This document shows positions 5,806-20,928 of a stretch of 64,000 nucleotides of DNA, piece after piece. This DNA is from an uncultured Schlesneria sp. (GTDB lineage Bacteria; Planctomycetota; Planctomycetia; Planctomycetales; Planctomycetaceae), in assembly GCA_903899985.1 (NCBI GenBank), contig CAIULL010000254.1, positions 1-64,000 on the forward strand, given 5' to 3'. Both the position numbers and the translations under genes were made by a program. Positions within the stretch are counted from its first letter, which is position 1; each line of letters begins with the position of its first letter. A model generated the notes under the pieces. It saw only the letters and a program-made list of their open reading frames with translations. It was not told the DNA's origin and ran no database searches.

Positions 5806-6537
5806 CTAAGAAGAGAGGGGCCAGACGATCTTTACAGTTGTCGGCCCGGAAGGTGACGACTGAATTTCAATCTGACCAGAATGTTGATCGATAATTCGCC
5901 AGCATTTTGGCAATCCGAAACCCAGCCCGCGGCCCGCTTGTCTTCCCGAAAAGAAGGGATCAAAGGCGTGTTCCCTTTCGTCGTCTCGAAATCCGACGCC
6001 CCGGTCGGTCAATTCGATGAAGGCCTTTTCCGCATCCGCCGTTGCTGAGATTTGAATTTCGCCGCCGCCGGGCTGCAAAGCTTGAAGAGCGTTTCGAAGC
6101 AATTCGCTCAGGACGATCGATAATTGGGTCGGGTCTGCCTTAAGCACGATCGATTCAGGGATCTGCATGGAAACCGTTGAGCACCCGTTTTCTAAATCGG
6201 CTTTGTGTTTGGTCACGACTCGGTCAACAACTTCTGCCAGGTTGATGACCTGAAACTCAGGGCAGGGGGGGCGTCCGAACAGCATCGTATCGCCGATCAT
6301 GTCACGGATGCGGTAAGCCTGAGCCCCGATCGACATCAGCATCTGGCGTTTTTGAGGATCGGTCTCGTCTTTCAACAACATCTGAGCGCGGCCAATAATG
6401 GTGGCCAGAGGGTTGTTGATTTCATGCCCGGCACCAGCCGCGAATTCCGCCAGGGCTTCGAGTTTGCTTCGATCCGGCGAAACAATAAAACTCACGTCAG
6501 GGCGTGAGTCAGAGCAACCGTCAGTTGTGTCTGGCAT
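5806..6537 (-). CDS. Soluble sensor-less histidine kinase
   Basis: 243-residue HisKA plus HATPase_c kinase without a transmembrane or recognisable sensor domain. The phospho-acceptor is His38 in GHEINNPLA, the N-box asparagine is N149 in ELLRNALQAL, the G1 box is DRGVGF (178-183) and the G2 box GRGLGFGL (202-209). Kinases with this short N-terminus usually receive their signal from a partner protein. The response regulator at 6810-7388 lies upstream on the same strand and is a plausible partner, but a strong terminator separates them, so co-transcription is unlikely. All ATP-binding motifs look intact. Confidence 0.92.
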   Translation of the reverse strand: MPDTTDGCSDSRPDVSFIVSPDRSKLEALAEFAAGAGHEINNPLATIIGRAQMLLKDETDPQKRQMLMSIGAQAYRIRDMIGDTMLFGRPPCPEFQVINLAEVVDRVVTKHKADLENGCSTVSMQIPESIVLKADPTQLSIVLSELLRNALQALQPGGGEIQISATADAEKAFIELTDRGVGFRDDEREHAFDPFFSGRQAGRGLGFGLPKCWRIIDQHSGQIEIQSSPSGPTTVKIVWPLSS

Positions 6538-6749
6538 AGTACCAATGCCTTGTTGATAATCTCAATTCGATACAACGTGACCCGCAGAGACCGATATGTA
6601 ACGATGTTCTTTCCGCCAAAGTACAGTTGTTTTTGCAAAACAAGAATGACGAACCGCAAGCTGGTGGCATGGGCTTTTGCCCGTGCAGCACGACATTGTG
6701 AGCGTGGAAGCCCGTAACTACAATAACGGACGACCGTTTTGCGAGCACG

Positions 6750-6781
6750 AAAAAGCCCGATGGGTTGCCATCGGGCTTTTT
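6750..6781 (-). terminator. Rho-independent terminator of the response regulator gene
   Basis: AAAAAGCCCGATGG (6750-6763) pairs with CCATCGGGCTTTTT (6768-6781) over a 4-base loop. The A-run on one side and T-run on the other make it usable in both directions. It sits 29 bases past the stop of the minus-strand response regulator. The remainder of 6538-6809 holds a small GGGCTTTTGCCC hairpin near 6670 and no gene. Confidence 0.85.
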
Positions 6782-6809
6782 TGTTAGTTTATTGGGGATT
6801 CCGGTGTAT

Positions 6810-7388
6810 TCACGCTTCGACCGGTTCGACGTCGAGAAGTTTGCACATGCGTTCGACGAGCGATTCGATTTCGAACGGTTTTTGCATGAAATCGTTGGCA
6901 CCTGATGCTTTCAGGTCCGCGATTTTGTCCTGCTCGACCATGCCGCTGATGCAGATGATCTGAGTCCCGTCGAGAGCGGAATCCATCCGTACTCGCTGAC
7001 AGACTTCTTTCCCGTTGATATCTGGTAGCATGACATCCAGGACAATGATGTCAGGTCTGTATTCTTTGACCATCATTCCGGCGTCGAAACCGTTGTTCGC
7101 GACGCGGACTTCGAATCGACCGTCTGCTTCGAGCGCGTCCCGGATCAATTCGACCAGTTCTTCGTCATCGTCGACGATCAATGCTTTACGGCGACCACTT
7201 TCCAGTGCGTCGGTCGGAATGCCGTTTTCTTTCATGAACCGATAAAGGATGTCTCGCGGAATACGGCGGAAACGAGATCCAGGTACGCGAAACCCACGAA
7301 GCTGCCCCGAGTCAAAGCAACGTATGATCGTTTGCTGACTGACTTTGCAGATCTTGGCGGCTTCGCCCGTTGTAAAGACGGTTTTCAT
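6810..7388 (-). CDS. Response regulator with N-terminal excisionase/MerR-type HTH and C-terminal receiver domain
   Basis: 192 residues from the ATG at 7386-7388, chosen because GGAGGAG lies about 8 bases upstream; a longer frame to 7460 lacks such a site. Residues 4-50 (FTTGEAAKICKVSQQTIIRC to RFRRIPRDILYRFM) match the excisionase/MerR-like DNA-binding fold. Residues 68-185 are a complete receiver: acidic pocket DDD at 73-75, phospho-acceptor D118 in IIVLDVMLP, S148 in CISGM, and K170 in MQKPFE. The order HTH then REC reverses the common layout. It probably binds DNA and answers a histidine kinase, perhaps the one at 5806-6537. Confidence 0.9.
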   Translation of the reverse strand: MKTVFTTGEAAKICKVSQQTIIRCFDSGQLRGFRVPGSRFRRIPRDILYRFMKENGIPTDALESGRRKALIVDDDEELVELIRDALEADGRFEVRVANNGFDAGMMVKEYRPDIIVLDVMLPDINGKEVCQRVRMDSALDGTQIICISGMVEQDKIADLKASGANDFMQKPFEIESLVERMCKLLDVEPVEA

Positions 7389-7710
7389 ACGGCAGCTCCT
7401 CCATCCTTTGCAGGGGCGCACCCGCGGAATCCCCCCACGGGCTGAAAGACGATCCCGCAATCGTGCGACATCGTTCTTTCACAGTTTTCCGAACTTGAAG
7501 GCAGCGAATTTGCAATCCGTCAATTCGCCAGATCACCATCCACTATGCCGAGACTTCGTCAACCACGGCATCGGTTGATAGTGCGGAACCTTCCGAATCT
7601 TCCGTGCGTACCGATTGTAACCATTCTGACAAATCGGTCAACGTTCGTTTGCCTGTTTATAACTCCAGGTAGGAAAACTCAACCAAGATTACCCAATGGC
7701 TCAGGGCGCA
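7389..7710. other. Intergenic region between mnmG and the response regulator
   Basis: 322 bases between two minus-strand genes. I see no hairpin with a T-run, no RNA gene and no ORF with a credible ribosome-binding site. It presumably holds the promoter of the response regulator, but no clear -35/-10 pair stood out. Confidence 0.5.
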
Positions 7711-9573
7711 TCAAATGTCACTGGCGAGCCGGTCTGGCTCTTTTAGGTAGAGCAGAAGGATCGTGAGGTCAGCAGGAGTAATTCCGCTGATTCGACTGGC
7801 TTGACCCAGGTCAGCGGGACGAACTTTCGTCAGTTTCTCTTTGGCTTCGCGACGTAACTGTGCGACAGCTTGAAAGTTAAACGATTCTGGAATACGCACA
7901 AATTGAATTTTATGTTGCCGTTCGATATCGGCTGTCTGGCGACGGATATAACCCGCATACTTGGTTTCAATCTCCACTTGCTGTTTCGCAAGGACTCCGA
8001 TCGTCAACCCGGCCAATTCAGATGACATCGACTCCAGTTCAGTCCAGGTAATTTCTGGACGACGCAGCCATTCCTCAAATGTCGCACCCTGGTGTCTAAG
8101 TTGCTCAATCAATTCAGAAGCGCGAGCAATATCTGCTTCATGTTTTTCAAATTGTTGCCAGCGGTGGTCGGAAACAAGACCAATGCGGCGACCAACCGGG
8201 GTCAGGCGTCGATCCGCATTGTCCTGTCTCAACAGCAATCGGTATTCGGATCGCGATGTGAACATCCGATACGGCTCATCGACACCTTTGGTAACCAGGT
8301 CATCGATCAGCACCCCCAGATATCCCTGGCTGCGATCGATGACTAACGGTGGCTGCTTCGCCAATTTCAATGCCGCGTTGATCCCGGCAAGTAGTCCCTG
8401 GCCGGCCGCCTCCTCATAACCGGTCGTCCCATTGATCTGACCCGCGAAATAAAGCCCTTCAACACGCTTTGTTTCCAATGACGTTTTTAGTTGAGTCGGA
8501 GGGGCGAAGTCGTATTCGACCGCGTAGCCGTACCGCATGATTTCGGCTCGTTCGAGTCCCTTGATCGAACGGACCAGTTCATCTTGAACGTCCCTCGGCA
8601 GACTCGTCGAGATTCCATTGCAGTAGTACTCCCACGTATTTCGCCCTTCAGGTTCAAGAAAAATGTGGTGAGATGACTTATCTGAGAATCGAACGACCTT
8701 ATCTTCAATTGACGGACAGTATCTCGGACCAGTGGACTGGATCTGGCCACTGTACATCGGCGCACGATGAAGATTCGCTCGAATCAGTTCGTGAACGTGC
8801 TCGTTTGTTTCCGTCAACCAGCACGGCATTTGTGTCTGCGAAAGCTGGCTCGTTAAAAACGAAAACGGCTGTGGATCGGGGTCACCCGGCTGTTCGGCGC
8901 AGGCGGAAAAATCGATTGTCCGTCCGTTCAGACGACAAGGGGTTCCCGTCTTGAATCGTTGTAATTCAAAGCCAAGTCCCCTGAGGCAATCGGACAATGT
9001 TCCCGTCGTTCCATCGCCAGCTCGGCCTCCTGCCGTCTTAGCCTCACCGGTATGCATGATCGCCTGAAGGAATGTCCCTGTGGTGATCACGACTGCACGA
9101 CAGCGATATAAACCTCCGCCACGAACGCGGACACCGGAAACTCTATTCACCGCTTCGTCGCTCGACGAACCATCACCTTCAACGAGGATTTCCTCAACCA
9201 ATTCCTGCCGCAACGTGAGTCCTGGCTGGGCTTCAATCCGATATTTCATTTCGAACTGATAGGCTTTTTTATCGGCCTGGGCGCGGGGGCTGTGCATCGC
9301 CGCCCCTTTGCTTCGATTAAGCATGCGAAACTGAATTCCGGTCGCATCAATCACCCGGCCCATTTCACCGCCGAGCGCATCAATCTCGCGAACGATCTGC
9401 CCCTTGGCGACACCACCGATCGCGGGGTTGCAACTCATTTGCCCCACGCTGTCGCAGTTCATTGTCAGCAGGACAGTTCTGGCTCCAAGTCGCGCTGCGG
9501 CGAGCGCAGCCTCACAGCCAGCGTGCCCCGCTCCAATCACAGCCACATCGAAATCGTAGAAGCTTGTTTTCAT
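7711..9573 (-). CDS. mnmG: MnmG (GidA), tRNA uridine-5-carboxymethylaminomethyl modification enzyme
   Basis: FAD-dependent subunit that, with MnmE, modifies the wobble uridine (U34) of several tRNAs. 620 residues matches the family. The FAD-binding [17 protein letters not shown] is at residues 14-30, followed by [12 protein letters not shown] and [10 protein letters not shown], then [16 protein letters not shown]; the C-terminus carries the conserved IPESFNFQ and [18 protein letters not shown] segments. No mnmE gene is seen nearby, and tilS, another tRNA-modifying gene, lies far away at 62948. The ribosome-binding site is weak, but the residues right after the start fit the family. Confidence 0.97.
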
Positions 9574-9747
9574 TCGAGCAGATTACCAAATTTGTCACAG
9601 GACTTCAGCATGCGACATCGTTTTTGGGCGAGCTAGCCGACGCGGTGTAAACGAGTTAAATTATCGCCAGACGGAAATGACCGAGTTTCCGCTACCACAC
9701 TTCATCTCGGTTCCCACACTCGATCATCAACCAAGAAGGATCGACTC

Positions 9748-10248
9748 ATGTCATTACGGTCAAACGAACGTCAGCTGGTCTGGTTATTATTCGGAATTAT
9801 TGGCGGACTTTGTCTTGCCTACTTCTGGCCGCATGAGCATGTTCTGGCAAGTGCGACGGATCGCGATGCAAAATTCGCAATCTGCACGGTTGAAGTCGGC
9901 GCTGGGAGTCCTGACGCGGTATTTGTCCTCGACTTCACCACAGGTCGGTTGCAAGGGGGAATGCTGAATCCTCAGGCTCAAGCCTTTACGAATTTCTGGT
10001 TCGCCAACGTTGCTCAGGATTTCAAGGTCGGAAAGAATGGAAAATACACAATGATTCCCGGGAGTGGACTCTTGAATGCACCAGCAGGGGGGGGCGGCGG
10101 AGCCATCGCGTCGGGAGTGATCTACATCGCTGAAGTTACAACGGGAATGGTCGGCTGCTATCGATTCAGCTACGTGAACTCGCCACAGCCATTGCCACCC
10201 AGTCCGTTGCAGCCTGTGGATGTTTTCCCCTTCCGCGAATCGAAGTAA
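9748..10248 (+). CDS. Membrane-anchored hypothetical protein
   Basis: 166 residues, not recognised. A single hydrophobic segment at about residues 10-26 (VWLLFGIIGGLCLAYFW) suggests an N-terminal anchor or uncleaved signal. The rest is a small beta-rich domain (FAICTVEVGAGSPDAVFVLDF), a GGGGG run in the middle and a proline-rich C-terminus (PQPLPPSPLQP). AAGGA about 7 bases before the ATG supports the start. It is divergent from mnmG and has its own strong hairpin behind it, so it is probably a single-gene transcript. Confidence 0.7.
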   Translation: MSLRSNERQLVWLLFGIIGGLCLAYFWPHEHVLASATDRDAKFAICTVEVGAGSPDAVFVLDFTTGRLQGGMLNPQAQAFTNFWFANVAQDFKVGKNGKYTMIPGSGLLNAPAGGGGGAIASGVIYIAEVTTGMVGCYRFSYVNSPQPLPPSPLQPVDVFPFRESK

Positions 10249-10254
10249 ATCCTT

Positions 10255-10290
10255 CTCCACCGGGTCGGAACAGACTCCGACCCGGTGGAG
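10255..10290 (+). terminator. Strong hairpin after the 9748 gene
   Basis: CTCCACCGGGTCGGA (10255-10269) pairs with TCCGACCCGGTGGAG (10276-10290): 15 base pairs with a 6-base loop, starting 7 bases after the stop. The downstream tract TGATCTTGTTTG is only moderately T-rich. Confidence 0.7.
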
Positions 10291-10326
10291 TGATCTTGTT
10301 TGCGTCTCACTGGATCGCAAGTCATC

Positions 10327-10498
10327 GTTTAACCGCGCCTCGCAGAGAAGCGAGTCGTGCGGGGTCGCTGACGAACCCGAGGCGTCATTGAGCGTTTGAC
10401 TATTGCCGTCGTCTTTCACATTGTTGGAAGACGCTCGGCAACATTCGAAGAGATCGGCTGAACGCCGATCAGCCTGCGCCGATGGCTGCGGGTTAAAC
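10327..10498. repeat. 172-bp repeat with inverted ends, copy 1
   Basis: Starts GTTTAACCGCGCC and ends CTGCGGGTTAAAC, so the tips are near-perfect inverted repeats. The inside contains short hairpins such as CGCAGAGAAGCG-like and GGCTGAACGCCGATCAGCC. A near-identical copy follows after 18 bases. On the minus strand it reads open for about 57 codons, giving a protein-like but spurious string. Confidence 0.85.
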
Positions 10499-10516
10499 GA
10501 CGAATCTGTTTTCATC

Positions 10517-10688
10517 GTTTAACCGCGCCTCGCAGAGAAGCGAGTCGTGCGGGGTCGCTGACGAACCCGAGGCGTCGTTGACCGTTTGGCGATTGCCGTC
10601 GTCTTTCACATTGTTGGAAGATGCTCGGCAACGATCGAAGAGATCGACTGAACGCCGATCAGCCTGCGCCGATGGCTGCGGGTTAAAC
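10517..10688. repeat. 172-bp repeat with inverted ends, copy 2
   Basis: Same length, same orientation and about 95 percent identical to the copy at 10327-10498 by eye, offset by exactly 190 bases. The 18-base spacer between the two and the short GAATCTGTTTTCATC-like flank suggest tandem duplication of a unit larger than the repeat itself. Confidence 0.85.
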
Positions 10689-10730: not shown

Positions 10731-12833
10731 TCACTTCGACGCGGGTTTCGAAGAACTCAACGGATTTGGAGCGGGCTTCAAGCCCCAAATGCTGAAGAAC
10801 CAGCGCGCGGGTATGGTTGTGTCACGTTCGATCCATCGCGCATCCGGGGGCAAATCCGGGATTTCAATTTCAGTCAGGGGTGTTCCGTTTGGTGAAAACT
10901 CCGCAGCTGCCACCAAATCTTGATGGCCCTCAGTGATCCCCAATAATTCACCAGTTGTCACGCTCCAACGAGCAACCCGCCCCTGACGATCCGCGCTGAT
11001 CAATGACTCGCCATCGGCCCGAAAAGCGACCGAGGCTGCCGGCGAATTCCAATTCATGGAAACCCGCTCATTCCCGCTGTGGAACTCGATCAATGCGATT
11101 CGGCCCGAATCAGGTGTCAACCAGTCTCCGGTTGCCACGGCGAGTAATTCGCCGTCCGGAGAAAATCTCACGCAGTTCACTGGTCCCAATTCGCGTGGTA
11201 ATTCGCGAACTGGATGATCGCTGTTCCGATTCCAGATCCGGACGATTCCATCGCGACCTCCCGTCACCATCCAGTTTCCATCGGAAGAGATATCAATCGA
11301 CTTCGCCGAGCCGCTGGGTATCTGCCAGTCACGAGTCGCCTGACACGTTTCCGCATCACACAAAAAAATTACCCCTTCCGCCCCGATCGCCACGAATTCG
11401 GACGTGTTTTGGGCAAACGAGATTGCTTGTAATCCAAGGTGATTTAAACTGAATTCATGCCCCGTTTCCAAATCGAATAAGCACTGGTTTGATTGGTTTC
11501 CAATTACCACAAATCGCCCATCCATCGAATGCGATCGAATTTCTGACCCGCTCCACGAAGATTGCGTTTTCGAGTTTTGGATCGAAATCGGTCGCTCGGC
11601 AAGCCAAGCTTCAGACGGCCCGCCAGCAGCGGAATCAAATGCGACAGGAACCAATGGAGCCAGCTTAACCTGCGGCTGATGTGTCGACTGGCTCAATTGC
11701 CGAGCGGTCTGGCTTATTGGAGGACGAGCGGCGAGCCACGACGGCTGAAGTGGCAGAGCACACGCCAGCAAAAGGCAAATGAATCGACCGCAATAGCCAA
11801 AGTCCTGACGCCGAGGACCACGCATGATCCACGTTAATCGTTGACGAAGGAAGGGGACTTGACCCAGACCCGTGGCCAGTGCCGGCATTCGCAATGGGCG
11901 TTCAGCAATAAAATCCACTACTTCGAGAATGGCTTGTGCATAACGTTTGGGAACTTCAGGCGAGGCCGCGACAACCATCGCGTCGCAACACTCCTCCTCG
12001 ACCGACTCGATTTCGCAACGAGCCCACCAGACGACGGGATGCCACCAGAAAAAACCCGTTGCCAGCAGTTCAACCACTCGTACCCAATGGTCACGACGCC
12101 GATAATGAGCCAATTCGTGCATTAACAACGTCCCTGTGGCCGAGTCGTCCAGCCGGTCAAGTAACCGTTCAGGAAAAATCAGAAATAATGATTGCCCGCT
12201 CCCCCACAACATCGGGGACATGACACCCGGCATCAGCCAGACTGTCGGCGAATACGGCAAACCCATTCGACGCGCCAGACGGTCCGCGAATCGCTGAAGG
12301 TCCAGACACGCAGCATCGCCATGCCTCAATGACCAGCGAAACCTGACGCAGCGAATTCCCTGAATCACAAACCACACCAGTGCGCCAACGGCCCAGACAA
12401 CCAGCACAACGGCCATCAACGCTTGCCGAAAGTTTTCACTTCGAATCCAGCTTGCGGCGACCGTACTGAATGAGCGTTTTGAAGCGTTCAGTTGCTTATC
12501 GATCTCTGCCAGCGTTCTGGGGCGGGATTTCAATTTCGCCAGATTCTGGTTTGGTAACTCATCTGGCACGAACGATCGACGTGAACCGAACTCGATCTGA
12601 CCGACGTCGAAGATGACCCGGGGAAGCAATTGTCGAGATGTTGAGACCACCCAGTCACGGTCGATTAACGGGATCTGCCAGATCGGCGGCATCACAAGTT
12701 TGATAAGAATCAGCACCCACAAAAAATGGGTCAGTGCTGGACGGCGAAAAACCCGTCCGAAGGACTCGGCGACCAGCGCGAGCGGGACAATCATCAGCGC
12801 ATTGATGAGTGCGATCTCGAGGTACGAAAGCAC
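10731..12833 (-). CDS. M56 (BlaR1/MecR1-like) membrane metallopeptidase fused to WD40 repeats
   Basis: 700 residues. Hydrophobic segments near 5-21, 34-56, 138-158 and 351-370 match the BlaR1 membrane architecture. The zinc motif HELAH is at 239-243 and the third-ligand region EIESVEEECCD at 284-294. Where BlaR1 has a penicillin-binding sensor, this protein has WD40-type blades from about residue 420 (SIDISSDGNWMVTGGRDG, CVRFSPDGELLAVATGD, AASVAFRADGESLISADRQG). It lies 86 bases behind a BlaI-type repressor gene, the classic sensor-protease/repressor pairing. The signal sensed by a WD40 periplasmic domain is unknown. Beta-lactam sensing is not supported. Confidence 0.88.
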   Translation of the reverse strand: MLSYLEIALINALMIVPLALVAESFGRVFRRPALTHFLWVLILIKLVMPPIWQIPLIDRDWVVSTSRQLLPRVIFDVGQIEFGSRRSFVPDELPNQNLAKLKSRPRTLAEIDKQLNASKRSFSTVAASWIRSENFRQALMAVVLVVWAVGALVWFVIQGIRCVRFRWSLRHGDAACLDLQRFADRLARRMGLPYSPTVWLMPGVMSPMLWGSGQSLFLIFPERLLDRLDDSATGTLLMHELAHYRRRDHWVRVVELLATGFFWWHPVVWWARCEIESVEEECCDAMVVAASPEVPKRYAQAILEVVDFIAERPLRMPALATGLGQVPFLRQRLTWIMRGPRRQDFGYCGRFICLLLACALPLQPSWLAARPPISQTARQLSQSTHQPQVKLAPLVPVAFDSAAGGPSEAWLAERPISIQNSKTQSSWSGSEIRSHSMDGRFVVIGNQSNQCLFDLETGHEFSLNHLGLQAISFAQNTSEFVAIGAEGVIFLCDAETCQATRDWQIPSGSAKSIDISSDGNWMVTGGRDGIVRIWNRNSDHPVRELPRELGPVNCVRFSPDGELLAVATGDWLTPDSGRIALIEFHSGNERVSMNWNSPAASVAFRADGESLISADRQGRVARWSVTTGELLGITEGHQDLVAAAEFSPNGTPLTEIEIPDLPPDARWIERDTTIPARWFFSIWGLKPAPNPLSSSKPASK

Positions 12834-12875
12834 AGCGCCCTCCGGCCCGAAGGTCAGCGATGTGAATTATGAACA

Positions 12876-12904
12876 GGGCCGGGAACAACGCTTATTCCCG
12901 GCCC
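12876..12904 (-). terminator. Hairpin between the BlaI and M56-WD40 genes
   Basis: GGGCCGGGAA (12876-12885) pairs with TTCCCGGCCC (12895-12904) in the 86-base gap inside the putative operon. No T-run follows on the minus strand, so it could attenuate or stabilise the mRNA and lower M56 expression relative to BlaI. Confidence 0.55.
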
Positions 12905-12919
12905 AAAACTGCGATTTGA

Positions 12920-13309
12920 TTAACGGCCTTTTTCTCGATCCAGATCATCGAGTAGGTCACGCAACGAACCAAGTTGATCTTCACTGAGTTTGGCTTTGAC
13001 CAGATGAGACAGCAACGGCGCCAGCGATCCCTCACACAACTTGTCAGCGGTGGCCTGCAACCGACGACCGATCAGCTCTTCACGATCAATCTTCGGCTCG
13101 AACATGTGTGGCCAGGGCTTGCGGTCACGTTTGACGAACTTTTTCAGTTCCAGCCGCTCTAACAGTTTTTGTACGGTGGCGTAGTGGGCACCAGTACCAC
13201 CAGGGTAAAGCGTGTCTGTCAGATCGCGGACAGTCGTTCGACCTCGCTCCCACAGCAGGTTGATGACCGCTAACTCCGCGTCGGTAATGTCTTGCGGTGT
13301 TCGTGCCAT
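12920..13309 (-). CDS. BlaI/MecI/CopY-family transcriptional repressor
   Basis: 129 residues, normal for the family. A winged helix at about residues 8-75 (LTDAELAVINLLWERG-like start, then GAHYATVQKLLERLELKKFVKR) is followed by the helical dimerisation tail (LSHLVKAKLSEDQLGSLRDLLDDL). Such repressors bind operators as dimers and are cleaved or displaced when a partner M56 protease is activated. The M56-WD40 gene directly downstream fits that role. GGGCGAG lies about 7 bases before the ATG. Confidence 0.93.
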   Translation of the reverse strand: MARTPQDITDAELAVINLLWERGRTTVRDLTDTLYPGGTGAHYATVQKLLERLELKKFVKRDRKPWPHMFEPKIDREELIGRRLQATADKLCEGSLAPLLSHLVKAKLSEDQLGSLRDLLDDLDREKGR

Positions 13310-13490: not shown

Positions 13491-13575
13491 GTGCTAACAT
13501 TCACCAATGAGTTGCAAGGCAAATTGCTAGGGCAAAGGCCCGTTAACCACCCCCGCAGGGGGGGTGGGGTTTTAG
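13491..13575 (+). repeat. Dispersed ~85-bp repeat, copy A
   Basis: Contains CATTCACCAATGAG, CTAGGGCAAAGGCCCGTTAA and a CCACCCCCGCAGGGGGGGTGG hairpin followed by GGTTTT. Copy B (16840-16922) is the same sequence in the opposite orientation; shorter copies lie at 59195 and 59275. The stop codon and last eight or so codons of the gene at 13543-14709 lie inside this copy. Confidence 0.85.
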
Positions 13576-16738: not shown

Positions 16739-16839
16739 GGGCCGACTCCAGGAAGAATAATTTCAAGACTCATTATGAGAAATCAGACATCATCGAAGTC
16801 GTTTTGACAAGGATCGCCATTTTTCAGATTTAAACGAAA

Positions 16840-16922
16840 CTAAACCCCACCTCCCCCGCGAGGGTGGTTAACGGGCCTTTGCCCTAGGAAATTGCATCTC
16901 ATTGGTGAACGTTGGCTAGCAC
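16840..16922 (-). repeat. Dispersed ~85-bp repeat, copy B (inverted relative to copy A)
   Basis: The reverse complement of this stretch repeats copy A: TTCACCAATGAG, CTAGGGCAAAGGCCCGTTAA, CCACCCTCGCGGGGGAGGTGG, GGTTTAG. It abuts a different palindrome that begins at 16922. Together with copy A it brackets two genes and 3.3 kb. Confidence 0.85.
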
Positions 16923-17070
16923 ACAGTCAAGACTTAAAGTTCGGGTTGTGTGCCACTGCATCGGAGTCTTCGGAGACGCAGTGTCTTCTCTTTTTTTCGA
17001 GACAATCGAAGAACACTGGGTGACCGAAGACGGTCATCCAGTGGCACCCGAATCTTTAGCTTTGACTGTG
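16922..17070. repeat. 149-bp palindromic element with CACAGTCAA/TTGACTGTG ends
   Basis: Perfect 9-base inverted ends (16922-16930 and 17062-17070) continue as an imperfect long stem, with TTCGGG / CCCGAA and TGCCACTG / CAGTGGCA pairs. Inside are smaller hairpins (AGTCTTCGGAGAC and GACCGAAGACGGTC). It ends two bases before the stop codon of the M56-SurA-like gene, so the gene's terminator may be supplied by it. Confidence 0.7.
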
Positions 17071-17072
17071 CA

Positions 17073-19655
17073 TTAGTCCTTGCGATAGATAGGCGACGAG
17101 TTCGTCGATCCCTCGTTCGAGCCGCCGGATGGTCCCTCGTCGTAAAACTTGGGCAATGAGTATTGCGTCTCGATCTTCGCCGTTGAAAAGACTTCTCTCA
17201 TGAACTTCTCTGCGCAAGTTTGCCTTTTCTTAACGTCCAACTTCTGGCGAATTTGGTCCTGAACTTCAGCGAGTGCCTTTCGGCTGCCCTCTTCCCGAGC
17301 AGTCACGCGAACCAAGGAGTACGTGGTTGCTTTCCCGCTGACTTTACTCCATTGATTCAATGGCATCGAAAACAATTGCGATTCGAGTTCCGCATCTTTG
17401 AGACTCGCCAGCGGCAATCTGCTATAGGAATATTTTGAATATCTCGGATCAATCTTTTTGCGTTCGAAGGGGTCGCTGTCGTTGAATTCAACGAGCAAAT
17501 CGTCGAGTCTTTTTGTCGCTTCGGCATCGCTTAGTTCGGGTGAAATCGACAGTGCAATCTCCTGCCAAGATACCGTCTTCGGAATGCTAAACAGGTCAAC
17601 ATGTGAGTCATAATAGGCCGCGATCTCGGGCGCCTCCGTCGGTGTCAACGAGTCCGCCTTCGCCACGAAACATTCAGTGGACAATCGATCGAGCGTAAAA
17701 CTCTCTTTTACCTTTTGTAATGTCGATCCCTTTGTCTTCAGCTCGCGTTCAAGTTCTTCGATTGTCGCGACGTGGAGCTCTTGCTTGAGTCGATCGCACT
17801 GTTTCTCAAAGAGCTGATCAATGTGCCGATTCGATTCAACGATCTGATATTGTGTCAAGCCCGACATCATGTGTTGCACGAGGGCGACCTTTTGAATGTA
17901 ACTGGCAATATCTCGTTGAATCAATGTGCGGCGGAACTTGTCGAAATCGTCGCGGGTCGGTATCGGTTGTCCCGGTGGTGTCTTGCTCGGCTCGCCTGCC
18001 ATCGACAGCATTTGCTCACGAACGCTGATGAGATAACCGGCATAACGATCGAGGATCGCCCCGTTAAGAATGGGTTGGCCATTGACTGTCGCAGCGACTG
18101 CCGCGTTGAATTCCTCCGTGTCGTCTTTCCAATTGGCCCATTCGATCGGTTTCCGTTTACGGGGCGATTGCATTCGCTGAGTCGTCCACGCATCCAACGG
18201 CTGTTGTTTTGGATCAAATTTCGAGACTTGCTGATAATAGCCGTCCGCTTGAATTTGTAAGTTGATTTCGTCAGCTGAACGGCACGTGACGTCACCAACA
18301 GAAATTTTATAAGAGCCGTCGCTGTCCGTCGCAGCCGTCCACTCGATTTTGTCAAAGGGATTATTCGATCGATAGATGCTGAGTGTGACGTTCGCATCGC
18401 GCAGGGCATCGCCGTTTTCATCGGTAACGAATCCGCTGATTGTCTGTGGCAGTCGCATGAGTTCTGTGGCGTTCTGCGCGTCATTTGGTTCGATCATGTC
18501 GGGCTGATTCGAGGCCTCGACTGCCAATCGCGTTGATTTCGGCGGCGGCACTCGTACGGTCAACATGCCAACGACGATGATCCCGAGCGCGCACGTTGCC
18601 ATTCCAACCACCAGTGCGTCTCTGATTCGACCGGATCTTGAGTGCGGCTCTGTTTTAAATTCATTGATGTCGTGTAGGCGTCGGCGGAGCGACGACCGCT
18701 GTGCCATCGCCATTCCAAGTGCAATTGTCGGGACGTGAGCAGAACGAGCCGCGATTCGAACCAAGGCCAGCGCATATGCGTCTCGGCCAAGCGACCGGGA
18801 ACAGAACTGATCACAAATTCGTTCCCGAAGAATTTCGGCCTCTCGGCGAACGAACCAGGCGAGCGGGTGAATCCAATACAGCGTCGCCATGCACTGAGTC
18901 ATGACCTGCCAGAAAAAGTCACCGTTTTTGATATGCGTCAATTCGTGAATCAGGATTGCGTCTCGCTCGATTCGATCGCTGGAAATCAGGCAGTCGTGTG
19001 GAACGAGGATTACCGGTTTTCGCCATCCGAACGTGAGGGGAACCGAGCAAGAATTGGAAACTCGTAATTCAACATGACGCCGTACACCAAGCGATCTTGT
19101 CCAATGTCCCAACGATTCCAGCCAATCCGCATCGGCGACAACAGAACTTGACCGCTTCAGAAGTTGAAGTCCACGCCACGCTCCGATGAACCGCACGATC
19201 AACACGCTGAGAAAAAATCCGTAGGCTAGCGCGAGGCCAGCAATCAGAATCTTTTTCAACGAAAATCGTCGAATGACCGGTGTAGCGGAAGCCGTCGTTG
19301 CTGGAATCCTGGGGGTGACGTTCAACGCTTCAAAACCGACGTCTGACAAAAGGGTTAGCGGATCAATTTCATGGGGAAATATTTGGGCGTGCGGCGGAAT
19401 CGGCTTCTCTGAACCGGTCGTGTCGTGTCTGACACGATTGGAATTCGGGGAAGGGGAGAGCACCGGAATTTCAATTGGCGGGAGGCACCAGGCCGCCATC
19501 GGCAAAATCAGCAATGCCACCACTCCGACTCGTTTCCAGGCCATACAGGAGTACGCCCAGTAACGGCCCGCAATGTAGGCCAGTACCGTAACAATTCCCA
19601 GAATCAACGTCGATTTGCATCCGATGGAAAGAAACGCGGCCTGAAGATCCGTCAT
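17073..19655 (-). CDS. M56 membrane metallopeptidase fused to a carboxypeptidase-regulatory domain and a SurA/parvulin-like region
   Basis: 860 residues. N-terminal membrane part has hydrophobic segments near 10-30, 43-58, 135-158 and 350-368, with the zinc motif HELTH at 237-241 and EAEILRERICDQFC downstream. Residues about 405-480 (ISGFVTDENGDALRDANVTL to DSDGSYKISVGD) form a carboxypeptidase-regulatory-like beta domain. Residues about 520-835 resemble SurA/PpiC chaperones: VNGQPILNGAILDRYAGY, a long helical stretch, then a parvulin-like core (SIPKTVSWQEIALSISPELSDAEATKRLDDLL to YSLVRVTAREEG). The start overlaps the BlaI-type gene's stop (ATGA), implying coupled translation. The tail should lie outside the cytoplasm. 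Parvulin catalytic residues could not be judged by eye. Confidence 0.85.
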   Translation of the reverse strand: MTDLQAAFLSIGCKSTLILGIVTVLAYIAGRYWAYSCMAWKRVGVVALLILPMAAWCLPPIEIPVLSPSPNSNRVRHDTTGSEKPIPPHAQIFPHEIDPLTLLSDVGFEALNVTPRIPATTASATPVIRRFSLKKILIAGLALAYGFFLSVLIVRFIGAWRGLQLLKRSSSVVADADWLESLGHWTRSLGVRRHVELRVSNSCSVPLTFGWRKPVILVPHDCLISSDRIERDAILIHELTHIKNGDFFWQVMTQCMATLYWIHPLAWFVRREAEILRERICDQFCSRSLGRDAYALALVRIAARSAHVPTIALGMAMAQRSSLRRRLHDINEFKTEPHSRSGRIRDALVVGMATCALGIIVVGMLTVRVPPPKSTRLAVEASNQPDMIEPNDAQNATELMRLPQTISGFVTDENGDALRDANVTLSIYRSNNPFDKIEWTAATDSDGSYKISVGDVTCRSADEINLQIQADGYYQQVSKFDPKQQPLDAWTTQRMQSPRKRKPIEWANWKDDTEEFNAAVAATVNGQPILNGAILDRYAGYLISVREQMLSMAGEPSKTPPGQPIPTRDDFDKFRRTLIQRDIASYIQKVALVQHMMSGLTQYQIVESNRHIDQLFEKQCDRLKQELHVATIEELERELKTKGSTLQKVKESFTLDRLSTECFVAKADSLTPTEAPEIAAYYDSHVDLFSIPKTVSWQEIALSISPELSDAEATKRLDDLLVEFNDSDPFERKKIDPRYSKYSYSRLPLASLKDAELESQLFSMPLNQWSKVSGKATTYSLVRVTAREEGSRKALAEVQDQIRQKLDVKKRQTCAEKFMREVFSTAKIETQYSLPKFYDEGPSGGSNEGSTNSSPIYRKD

Positions 19656-20029
19656 GGTTTGCGTCCTTGCTTAAATTGTTGGATCAGATCCTGCAGATCG
19701 GCTGCGGAAAGTTGCTCTTCTTCCAGAAGTCGCAACACAAGGTCTTGCGGAGAACCGGAAAAGAACCGGCGAATGACGTTGCTCAACGTCTTCTGCTGGA
19801 CCTTTTCCCGTTGAATCACCGGTCGATAAACGAAGCTTCGCCCGTTACGCTCATGGCTGACAAAGCCTTTTTCTTCGAGGATTCTCAGCATGGTTCGAAC
19901 CGTGGAATCGTGCGGTTCGTCAGGCAACGTCATGCGGATCTGTTCCGCAGACGCCGTACCGAGTTCCCAAAGCCGACTCATGATCTCGGCTTCGCGTTCG
20001 GTCAAACTATTGGCAGGTGTCGGTTCCAT
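19652..20029 (-). CDS. BlaI/MecI/CopY-family transcriptional repressor
   Basis: 125 residues from the ATG at 20027-20029, chosen over a longer frame to 20089 because family members begin near SLTEREAEIMSRLWELG and AGGA lies just upstream. The winged helix includes STVRTMLRILEEKGFVSHERNGRSFVYRP, followed by the helical dimerisation region (TLSNVIRRFFSGSPQDLVLRLLEE). The stop overlaps the M56 gene start by four bases, so the two are translated together as a repressor/protease pair. It is divergent from the LolD-like ATPase at 20245. Confidence 0.93.
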   Translation of the reverse strand: MEPTPANSLTEREAEIMSRLWELGTASAEQIRMTLPDEPHDSTVRTMLRILEEKGFVSHERNGRSFVYRPVIQREKVQQKTLSNVIRRFFSGSPQDLVLRLLEEEQLSAADLQDLIQQFKQGRKP

Positions 20030-20095
20030 CAGTCGTCCTGTTAGTGTTTTAACAGTTCGGATGGTATTCACAGAGTCGTTTCGGATCAAGGGAAG

Positions 20096-20111
20096 TGTTA
20101 AACATTTAACA
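20096..20111. promoter_or_regulatory. Palindrome TGTTAAA-CA-TTTAACA, candidate BlaI operator
   Basis: Perfect 7-base arms with a 2-base centre, 67 bases upstream of the BlaI-type start and 134 bases upstream of the divergent ATPase gene. A partial half-match (TGTTTTAACA) lies at 20045-20054. BlaI-family operators are short dyads in such positions; binding is inferred. Confidence 0.45.
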
Positions 20112-20114
20112 AAT

Positions 20115-20143
20115 GGATTCGAACCAACAGCCGATTGCTCTGT
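20115..20143 (-). pseudogene. tRNA-Asn-like relic
   Basis: Minus strand reads AGAGCAATCGGCTGTT directly followed by GGTTCGAATCC. The first part matches the D-arm/anticodon-arm portion of many bacterial tRNA-Asn(GUU) genes, the second the T-loop. The anticodon 3' half and variable region appear deleted, consistent with loss between short TGTT direct repeats. A TCCTGATA-like stretch 15 bases further upstream could be the acceptor start. No acceptor pairing remains, so it cannot be functional. Confidence 0.4.
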
Positions 20144-20244: not shown

Positions 20245-20928
20245 ATGTCTCTGGAATTGCGAAACGTGACGAAGACCTACCGTGACCCGAGCGGCGGTCG
20301 AGTTCCCGTCTTGAATGTCGCTGATTTCAAGCTGGCCACTGGCGAGCAAGTGGCGCTAGTCGGTTCGAGCGGTGGTGGCAAGACAACACTGCTCAACATC
20401 ATCGCCGGGATCACCTCGGCCGACGCAGGGGAAGTCGTGATTGCCGGTACGAACATCGCACGACTCTCCGAAGCCTCACGCGACCGTTTTCGAGCGGAGC
20501 GAATCGGATATGTATTCCAGACATTCAACCTGCTGGCCGCTTTCACTGCGCTGGAAAACGTTCTGCTGGGGATGAGTTTCGGCGGACGAAAAGCGGATCG
20601 TGTTCACGCCAAAAAGCTACTCGAACGAGTTGGTCTCGGTCACCGCTTGAATCACAAGCCTTCACAAATGTCGGTCGGAGAACAGCAACGAACGTCGGTC
20701 GCTCGGGCACTGGCAAATACTCCACGTCTGCTGCTGGCAGACGAGCCAACCGCCAATGTCGATGTTGCCAACCAGCAAACCGTTCTGCAATTATTGCGCG
20801 ATTCCTGTCGCGAGAACAACGTTTCACTGCTGCTTGTCACGCATGCTCAAGACGTCGCAGCACAATTTGATCGAGTTGAAAAACTGTCGGATTTCAATCG
20901 ACCGGCTGATGCCAATCCGTTGAATTAG
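20245..20928 (+). CDS. ABC transporter ATP-binding protein, LolD/MacB type
   Basis: 227 residues, the usual size for the LolD/MacB/FtsE-type ATPases that drive mechanotransmission or lipoprotein release. Walker A GSSGGGKTT is at residues 39-47, the Q-loop in YVFQTFNLL, the signature SVGEQQR (LSGGQ variant) near 143-149, and Walker B LLLADEPT shortly after. The D-loop and H-loop (LLVTH) are present. AAGGAA precedes the ATG. No permease follows on this strand, so the partner must lie elsewhere. It shares a 215-base upstream region with the divergent BlaI gene, which may regulate it. Confidence 0.93.
   Translation: MSLELRNVTKTYRDPSGGRVPVLNVADFKLATGEQVALVGSSGGGKTTLLNIIAGITSADAGEVVIAGTNIARLSEASRDRFRAERIGYVFQTFNLLAAFTALENVLLGMSFGGRKADRVHAKKLLERVGLGHRLNHKPSQMSVGEQQRTSVARALANTPRLLLADEPTANVDVANQQTVLQLLRDSCRENNVSLLLVTHAQDVAAQFDRVEKLSDFNRPADANPLN

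Follow-up and report, generated by a model that had tools for sequence, protein, structure and literature searches.

What does a BlaR1-type sensor protease detect when its tail resembles a periplasmic chaperone? The question is raised by a gene in the window (the whole 64,000-nucleotide stretch of DNA analysed here, from an uncultured Schlesneria sp.). For this gene a preliminary description, made from the letters alone, had claimed an M56 protease carrying a carboxypeptidase-regulatory domain and a SurA/parvulin-like tail, coupled to a BlaI repressor and apparently serving as a sensor of misfolded envelope proteins. Planctomycetes possess an outer membrane and, to our knowledge, their sensing of envelope stress is poorly understood; the work on BlaR1 and MecR1 that we know of deals almost wholly with beta-lactam sensing.

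The gene is an intact reading frame of 860 codons with an ATG start, and its parts can be laid out as follows.

17073-19655, minus strand: M56-SurA fusion gene (open reading frame with Pfam and NCBIfam matches)
18672-19229, minus strand: Peptidase_M56 domain, residues 143-328 (PF05569, 5.2e-27, above cut-off)
18933-18947, minus strand: HELTH zinc motif, residues 237-241, with Glu279 in RERICD as candidate third ligand (BlaR1 alignment)
18222-18443, minus strand: CarboxypepD_reg-like domain, residues 405-478 (Pfam 2.8e-7; beta strands in the models)
17631-18143, minus strand: SurA-type N-terminal chaperone domain, residues 505-675 (identity to the resident lipoprotein and fold search)
17256-17630, minus strand: parvulin (PPIC, Rotamase_2) domain, residues 676-800 (PF13145, 2.9e-8, above cut-off)
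17406-17465, minus strand: degenerate parvulin active-site loop, residues 731-750 (alignment; SDG..A..GG motif absent)
17151-17255, minus strand: C-terminal helix completing the SurA chaperone module, residues 801-835 (tail model and fold comparison)

In a PDB sequence search the fusion protein matched BlaR1 (3e-6), and Pfam, NCBIfam and the fold search gave no match to a penicillin-binding or class D beta-lactamase sensor domain in it. Residues 505-675 show the N-domain pattern of SurA and PrsA (VAATVNGQPIL...), lying N-terminal to the parvulin domain. A structure model of the tail, built from 22 sequences with a mean pLDDT of 79.5, combines N-domain, parvulin domain and C-helix in the architecture of a SurA-like chaperone. 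Its best Foldseek matches were LIC12922, SurA in BAM-SurA complexes and PEB4/Cj1289 (E-values to 4e-9), and VIA-align gave a Z of about 12 against SurA and related PPIases. The rmsd over the whole tail was large (14-18 A), which we read as a different placement of the domains in the model; the parvulin domain by itself superposes at 2.5-2.9 A. The SurA/parvulin-like tail of the preliminary description is thus confirmed both by profile and by fold, and its carboxypeptidase-regulatory domain is also found, at a Pfam score of 31.2 bits that lies 1.1 bits under the cut-off of 32.3.

The protease half also resembles BlaR1 in its predicted arrangement. Hydrophobic segments are predicted at about 7-34, 43-61, 136-166 and 347-365, and the HELTH motif is housed in the loop of 180 residues between the third and the fourth (167-346), which is basic (27 K/R). 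Glu279 aligns with Glu242 of BlaR1, the third zinc ligand, giving a HEXXH...E site. The loop is predicted to be cytoplasmic and the C-terminal domain to lie outside, which would match the N-out/C-out arrangement of BlaR1 (PMC9834060), so that the zinc site falls where the preliminary description expected it. A full-length fold model is consistent with this topology; its overall confidence is low (pTM 0.42) and it served for topology alone.

The gene stands second in a compact operon, the surroundings of which are listed here.

16832-20116, no strand: segment carrying precisely the BlaI/M56-SurA operon, missing in two close relatives
19652-20029, minus strand: BlaI/MecI-type repressor, 125 aa (PF03965, 5e-33; PDB MecI, 5e-12)
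20039-20054, no strand: operator-like dyad TGTTAGTGTTTTAACA (match to the pattern TGTTA-N6-TAACA)
20061-20089, minus strand: candidate promoter TTGATC-N17-TACCAT, amid the two dyads (found by eye; 8/12, weak)
20096-20111, no strand: operator-like dyad TGTTAAACATTTAACA (match to the same pattern)
20245-20928, plus strand: divergent lone LolD-like ABC ATPase, also present in relatives that lack the operon

The claimed coupling to a BlaI repressor is borne out by the PF03965 match and by a 4-bp overlap of the two genes (ATGA, 19652-19655). For the repressor itself, the ATG at 20029 is the more likely start and is preferred over the TTG at 20089, since with the latter one operator would fall within the coding region. 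The cleavage pair N-F of MecI aligns with R-L in the window BlaI, replacing with Leu a P1' Phe that is nearly invariant among BlaI/MecI cleavage sites (PMC9834060). The candidate promoter scores under the threshold of the promoter scan. The strict dyad TGTTA-N6-TAACA occurs at only three sites in the 8.0-Mb genome, two of them at the promoter region of this operon, and allowing up to two mismatches raises the number to 15, compared with 44 for a control pattern. On these counts we rejected the idea that BlaI governs many genes of this genome. The search for genes carrying the dyad, a check that the preliminary description had proposed, leaves a wide stress regulon unsupported. Because the dyad is restricted to its own operon, the repressor appears to control that operon and the loop looks self-regulating. 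A different operator in relatives, CTACTGG-N4-CCAGTAG, was also rejected as the mark of a wider regulon: its sole exact site is the operon of one relative (G012), and its total is lower than that of the control.

The operon is also sharply bounded. In two close relatives, the 3.3 kb are replaced by about 40-50 bp between flanks that are 86-87% identical, and by this alignment the operon is a clean 3.3-kb gain or loss. A 54-nt dispersed intergenic repeat occurs in inverted orientation at 13519-13572 and 16842-16895 of the window, again at about 59190, and in several loci elsewhere in the genus. One of the copies borders the operon indel. On the other side, the LolD-like ATPase starts 133 bp from the nearer dyad. 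No permease gene lies alongside it in the window, and its orthologues in four relatives are 91-98% identical. Because it persists in relatives without the operon, it lies outside the unit gained or lost and is rejected as an obligate BlaI target; judged by position, it may or may not be affected by BlaI.

Where did the tail come from? Its relatives place the organism among Schlesneria-type Planctomycetota. The same genome encodes a separate SurA-like lipoprotein, 49-50% identical to the window tail and a member of a family encoded in 166 of the order's 170 genomes. Fusions of M56 with SurA are far scarcer: there are three among 15 genomes of the genus (the window, L039 and L040) and no more in 170 genomes of the order and 392 of the phylum. 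Fourteen long frames with SurA-like matches in those order and phylum genomes had no M56 domain, and GTDB contigs yielded no named relative of the whole fusion protein. In the tail tree, the fast-evolving window protein is nested among the standalone proteins of its own genus branch (100/100), and the tails of L039 and L040 fall in another genus branch (88/85). A single origin of all three tails was rejected by the AU test (p=0.0014), a common origin of the L039 and L040 tails was not (p=0.35), and the M56 halves of the fusions likewise lie in different clades. The rejected single origin and the divided M56 halves together argue for at least two independent captures of the SurA-like chaperone, and we infer that the window tail was copied from the SurA-like lipoprotein resident in the same genome. 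Two further loci without M56 indicate that the CarboxypepD_reg domain and the SurA N-domain also travel jointly without the protease: a decayed copy of the pair in the same genome (L037 4420-4947, contig C62), and, in a relative, an intact pair accompanied by TPR repeats (L038 5527-7860).

The SurA-like tail is one of many in the genus. Among about 100 M56 proteins that we collected, tail variety is large (CarboxypepD_reg in 40 of 100, WD40 in 15 of 100), and BlaI lies directly upstream in 82 of 110 M56 frames. The window holds a second BlaI-M56 pair itself (10731-13309, minus strand), with a WD40 beta-propeller tail and orthologues across the genus. Several other tails recall the assembly machinery of the outer membrane. 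Seven M56 proteins, one of them in the genome of the window (L005, contig C18), carry BamA-type POTRA arrays (PDB BamA, 2e-15; NCBIfam BamA, 9e-47). One array from G012 groups with the resident BamA (99/97), as does one from G006 (99/98), and a single clade of all seven tails was rejected (AU p=9e-10); by these trees, either POTRA arrays have been recaptured repeatedly or the tails have undergone gene conversion with the resident bamA. In G012, the genes for BlaI, M56-SurA and M56-POTRA form an uninterrupted row on the same strand, and M56-POTRA has no BlaI of its own there. SurA is known to pass unfolded outer-membrane proteins to BAM (PMC11366764), which would make the pairing of M56-SurA with M56-POTRA functionally logical. 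At L040, a protein with M56, four POTRA domains and HEAT repeats (6239-10633, plus strand), and by eye possibly an LptA/OstA-like stretch, is encoded directly downstream of the M56-SurA gene; its POTRA array is nearest to the BamA of its own genome.

Three more kinds of tail complete the set. OmpH/Skp-like coiled coils occur on two M56 proteins, from two genomes, with BlaI upstream, L146 (629-2719, plus strand) and L166 (363-2468, minus strand); the label comes from a Pfam OmpH match of 1.8e-8 alone for the former and from similarity for the latter, and a PDB sequence search with the Skp-like tail gave no match. L148 (644-2707, plus strand) joins M56 to a periplasmic adaptor of RND efflux (213 bits with TIGR01730, where the cut-off is 94.9), again with BlaI upstream. 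Finally, eight tails form a cluster (L075 659-2758, plus strand; L079, L080, L084, L090, L110, L132 and L160), and the tail of L075 matches a Secretin domain, from which it is possible that M56 proteins of this type sense type II/III or pilus secretins.

We can now return to what the window protein might detect. In comparison with the resident lipoprotein, the N-domain of the tail is 62% identical, the parvulin domain 36% and the active-site loop (718-760) only 23%, where two standalone proteins used as a control give 59, 53 and 52%, respectively. The SDG..A..GG motif, present in most homologues, is missing from the window protein. Retention of the chaperone N-domain and loss of the parvulin loop suggest binding rather than catalysis. 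Our preferred reading, to which we give a probability of about 45%, is that this is a BlaR1-type sensor-protease and repressor pair in which a SurA-like module is the sensor, monitoring the assembly of outer-membrane proteins. The tail would bind unfolded outer-membrane proteins as its clients, or whatever overflows from the resident chaperone and BAM; binding would shift the M56 zinc protease, which would then cleave BlaI. The operon would be derepressed and more of the chaperone-sensor made, in a self-inducing monitor. Architecture, predicted topology, the BlaI partner, operators confined to the promoter region of this operon, the source of the tail and the recurrent captures find their best explanation in such a sensor. 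Counting against it are R-L in place of N-F in the repressor, a search that found no regulon beyond the operon, the great variety of M56 tails in the genus, some of which may be general scaffolds, the rarity of the fusion (three genomes) and the fast evolution of the tail. The envelope-folding sensor of the preliminary description is therefore upheld in part: it gains from the repeated SurA captures, the POTRA and Skp-like fusions and the BlaI/M56-SurA/M56-POTRA cluster, and it loses by the P1' Leu and the apparently narrow regulon.

The leading rival, which we think unlikely although it could hold together with a sensor role, takes the tail to be an output: a tethered chaperone resembling PpiD, with its level set by M56/BlaI autoregulation that senses, for example, via the membrane or the CarboxypepD_reg domain. 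Operators at this operon only would fit that arrangement, and so would a complete SurA module, since the chaperone activity of SurA lies in its N-terminal region and a short C-terminal sequence, and PpiD is a precedent for a SurA-like chaperone anchored in the inner membrane with an inactive parvulin domain (PMC2956729). However, the C-terminal domain of BlaR1, which occupies the same position, is a sensor (PMC9834060), and it is hard to see what POTRA or RND-adaptor tails would do as tethered output chaperones.

Still less probable, in our judgement, is incidental shuffling, in which planctomycete M56 genes gather exported domains of many kinds and selection has given this tail no part in sensing. 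The great variety of M56 tails is what it would predict, as are the rarity of the M56-SurA fusion, its rapid divergence with loss of the parvulin loop, and the decayed CarboxypepD-SurA remnant in the same genome. Yet the frame is intact over 860 codons with its N-domain selectively retained, and at least two independent SurA captures stand beside several of POTRA, with the two joined in one cluster. Least likely of all is an integrated decoy, in which tails mimicking attacked envelope machines (BamA, SurA, Skp, RND adaptors) would report engagement by a toxin, phage or inhibitor: several distinct machines are copied, and the match of some POTRA tails to BamA from the same species is what a faithful decoy would show, but we saw no defence or immunity genes next to the window operon, and client sensing accounts equally well for the assembly-line theme.

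If the preferred reading, a SurA-like sensor of outer-membrane protein assembly, is true, M56/BlaI would be a general chassis for periplasmic sensing that uses copies of assembly machinery as sensor domains, and its inducers, clients and binding sites would be predictable from SurA and BAM biology. It would also offer a natural example in which sensor domains follow the resident gene from which they derive. More tentatively, and with less assurance than for the window protein alone, we suggest that Schlesneria holds a panel of such sensors, with M56/BlaI tails that copy SurA, a Skp-like protein, BamA POTRA domains and an RND adaptor, and that repeated recapture or gene conversion keeps fitted to the resident machine's clients or partners. 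Through such a panel the cell would read out its outer-membrane assembly line with one-component sensors distributed over several machines. In the open-access literature that was searched, we found no description of M56 with SurA, BamA, Skp-like or RND-adaptor tails. The M56/BlaI chassis is already known; what appears to be new is the SurA, Skp-like, POTRA and RND-adaptor tails and their unusual evolutionary pattern.

In comparison with known systems, the operon is closest in layout to BlaR1/MecR1 and BlaI/MecI, with which it shares an M56 gluzincin whose HEXXH...E site lies between TM3 and TM4, a predicted periplasmic C-terminal domain, a BlaI partner gene and two operators in the promoter region. 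Unlike those systems, it has a SurA-like tail in place of the penicillin-binding sensor, a different dyad and a repressor in which the N-F cleavage pair is unconserved, and no beta-lactamase gene was seen adjoining it. The tail has the N-domain, parvulin and C-helix module of SurA, PrsA and PEB4, with the resident SurA-like lipoprotein as its nearest relative. However, it is fused behind TM4 of the protease rather than secreted and has lost the parvulin loop, and the free lipoprotein form is a separate gene in this genome. PpiD is likewise a membrane-tethered SurA-like module, and its parvulin domain, as probably here, is inactive, but its anchor is a single TM helix, whereas the window protein is anchored by the four helices of an M56 protease that has a repressor as its partner. 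Finally, the proposed logic recalls DegS/RseA/sigma-E and Cpx, in that a periplasmic binder of unfolded outer-membrane proteins would gate a protease that removes a regulator of transcription. In contrast to those pathways, this would be a one-protein M56 sensor acting on BlaI, with neither an anti-sigma factor nor a kinase, and with a regulon that is apparently only itself.
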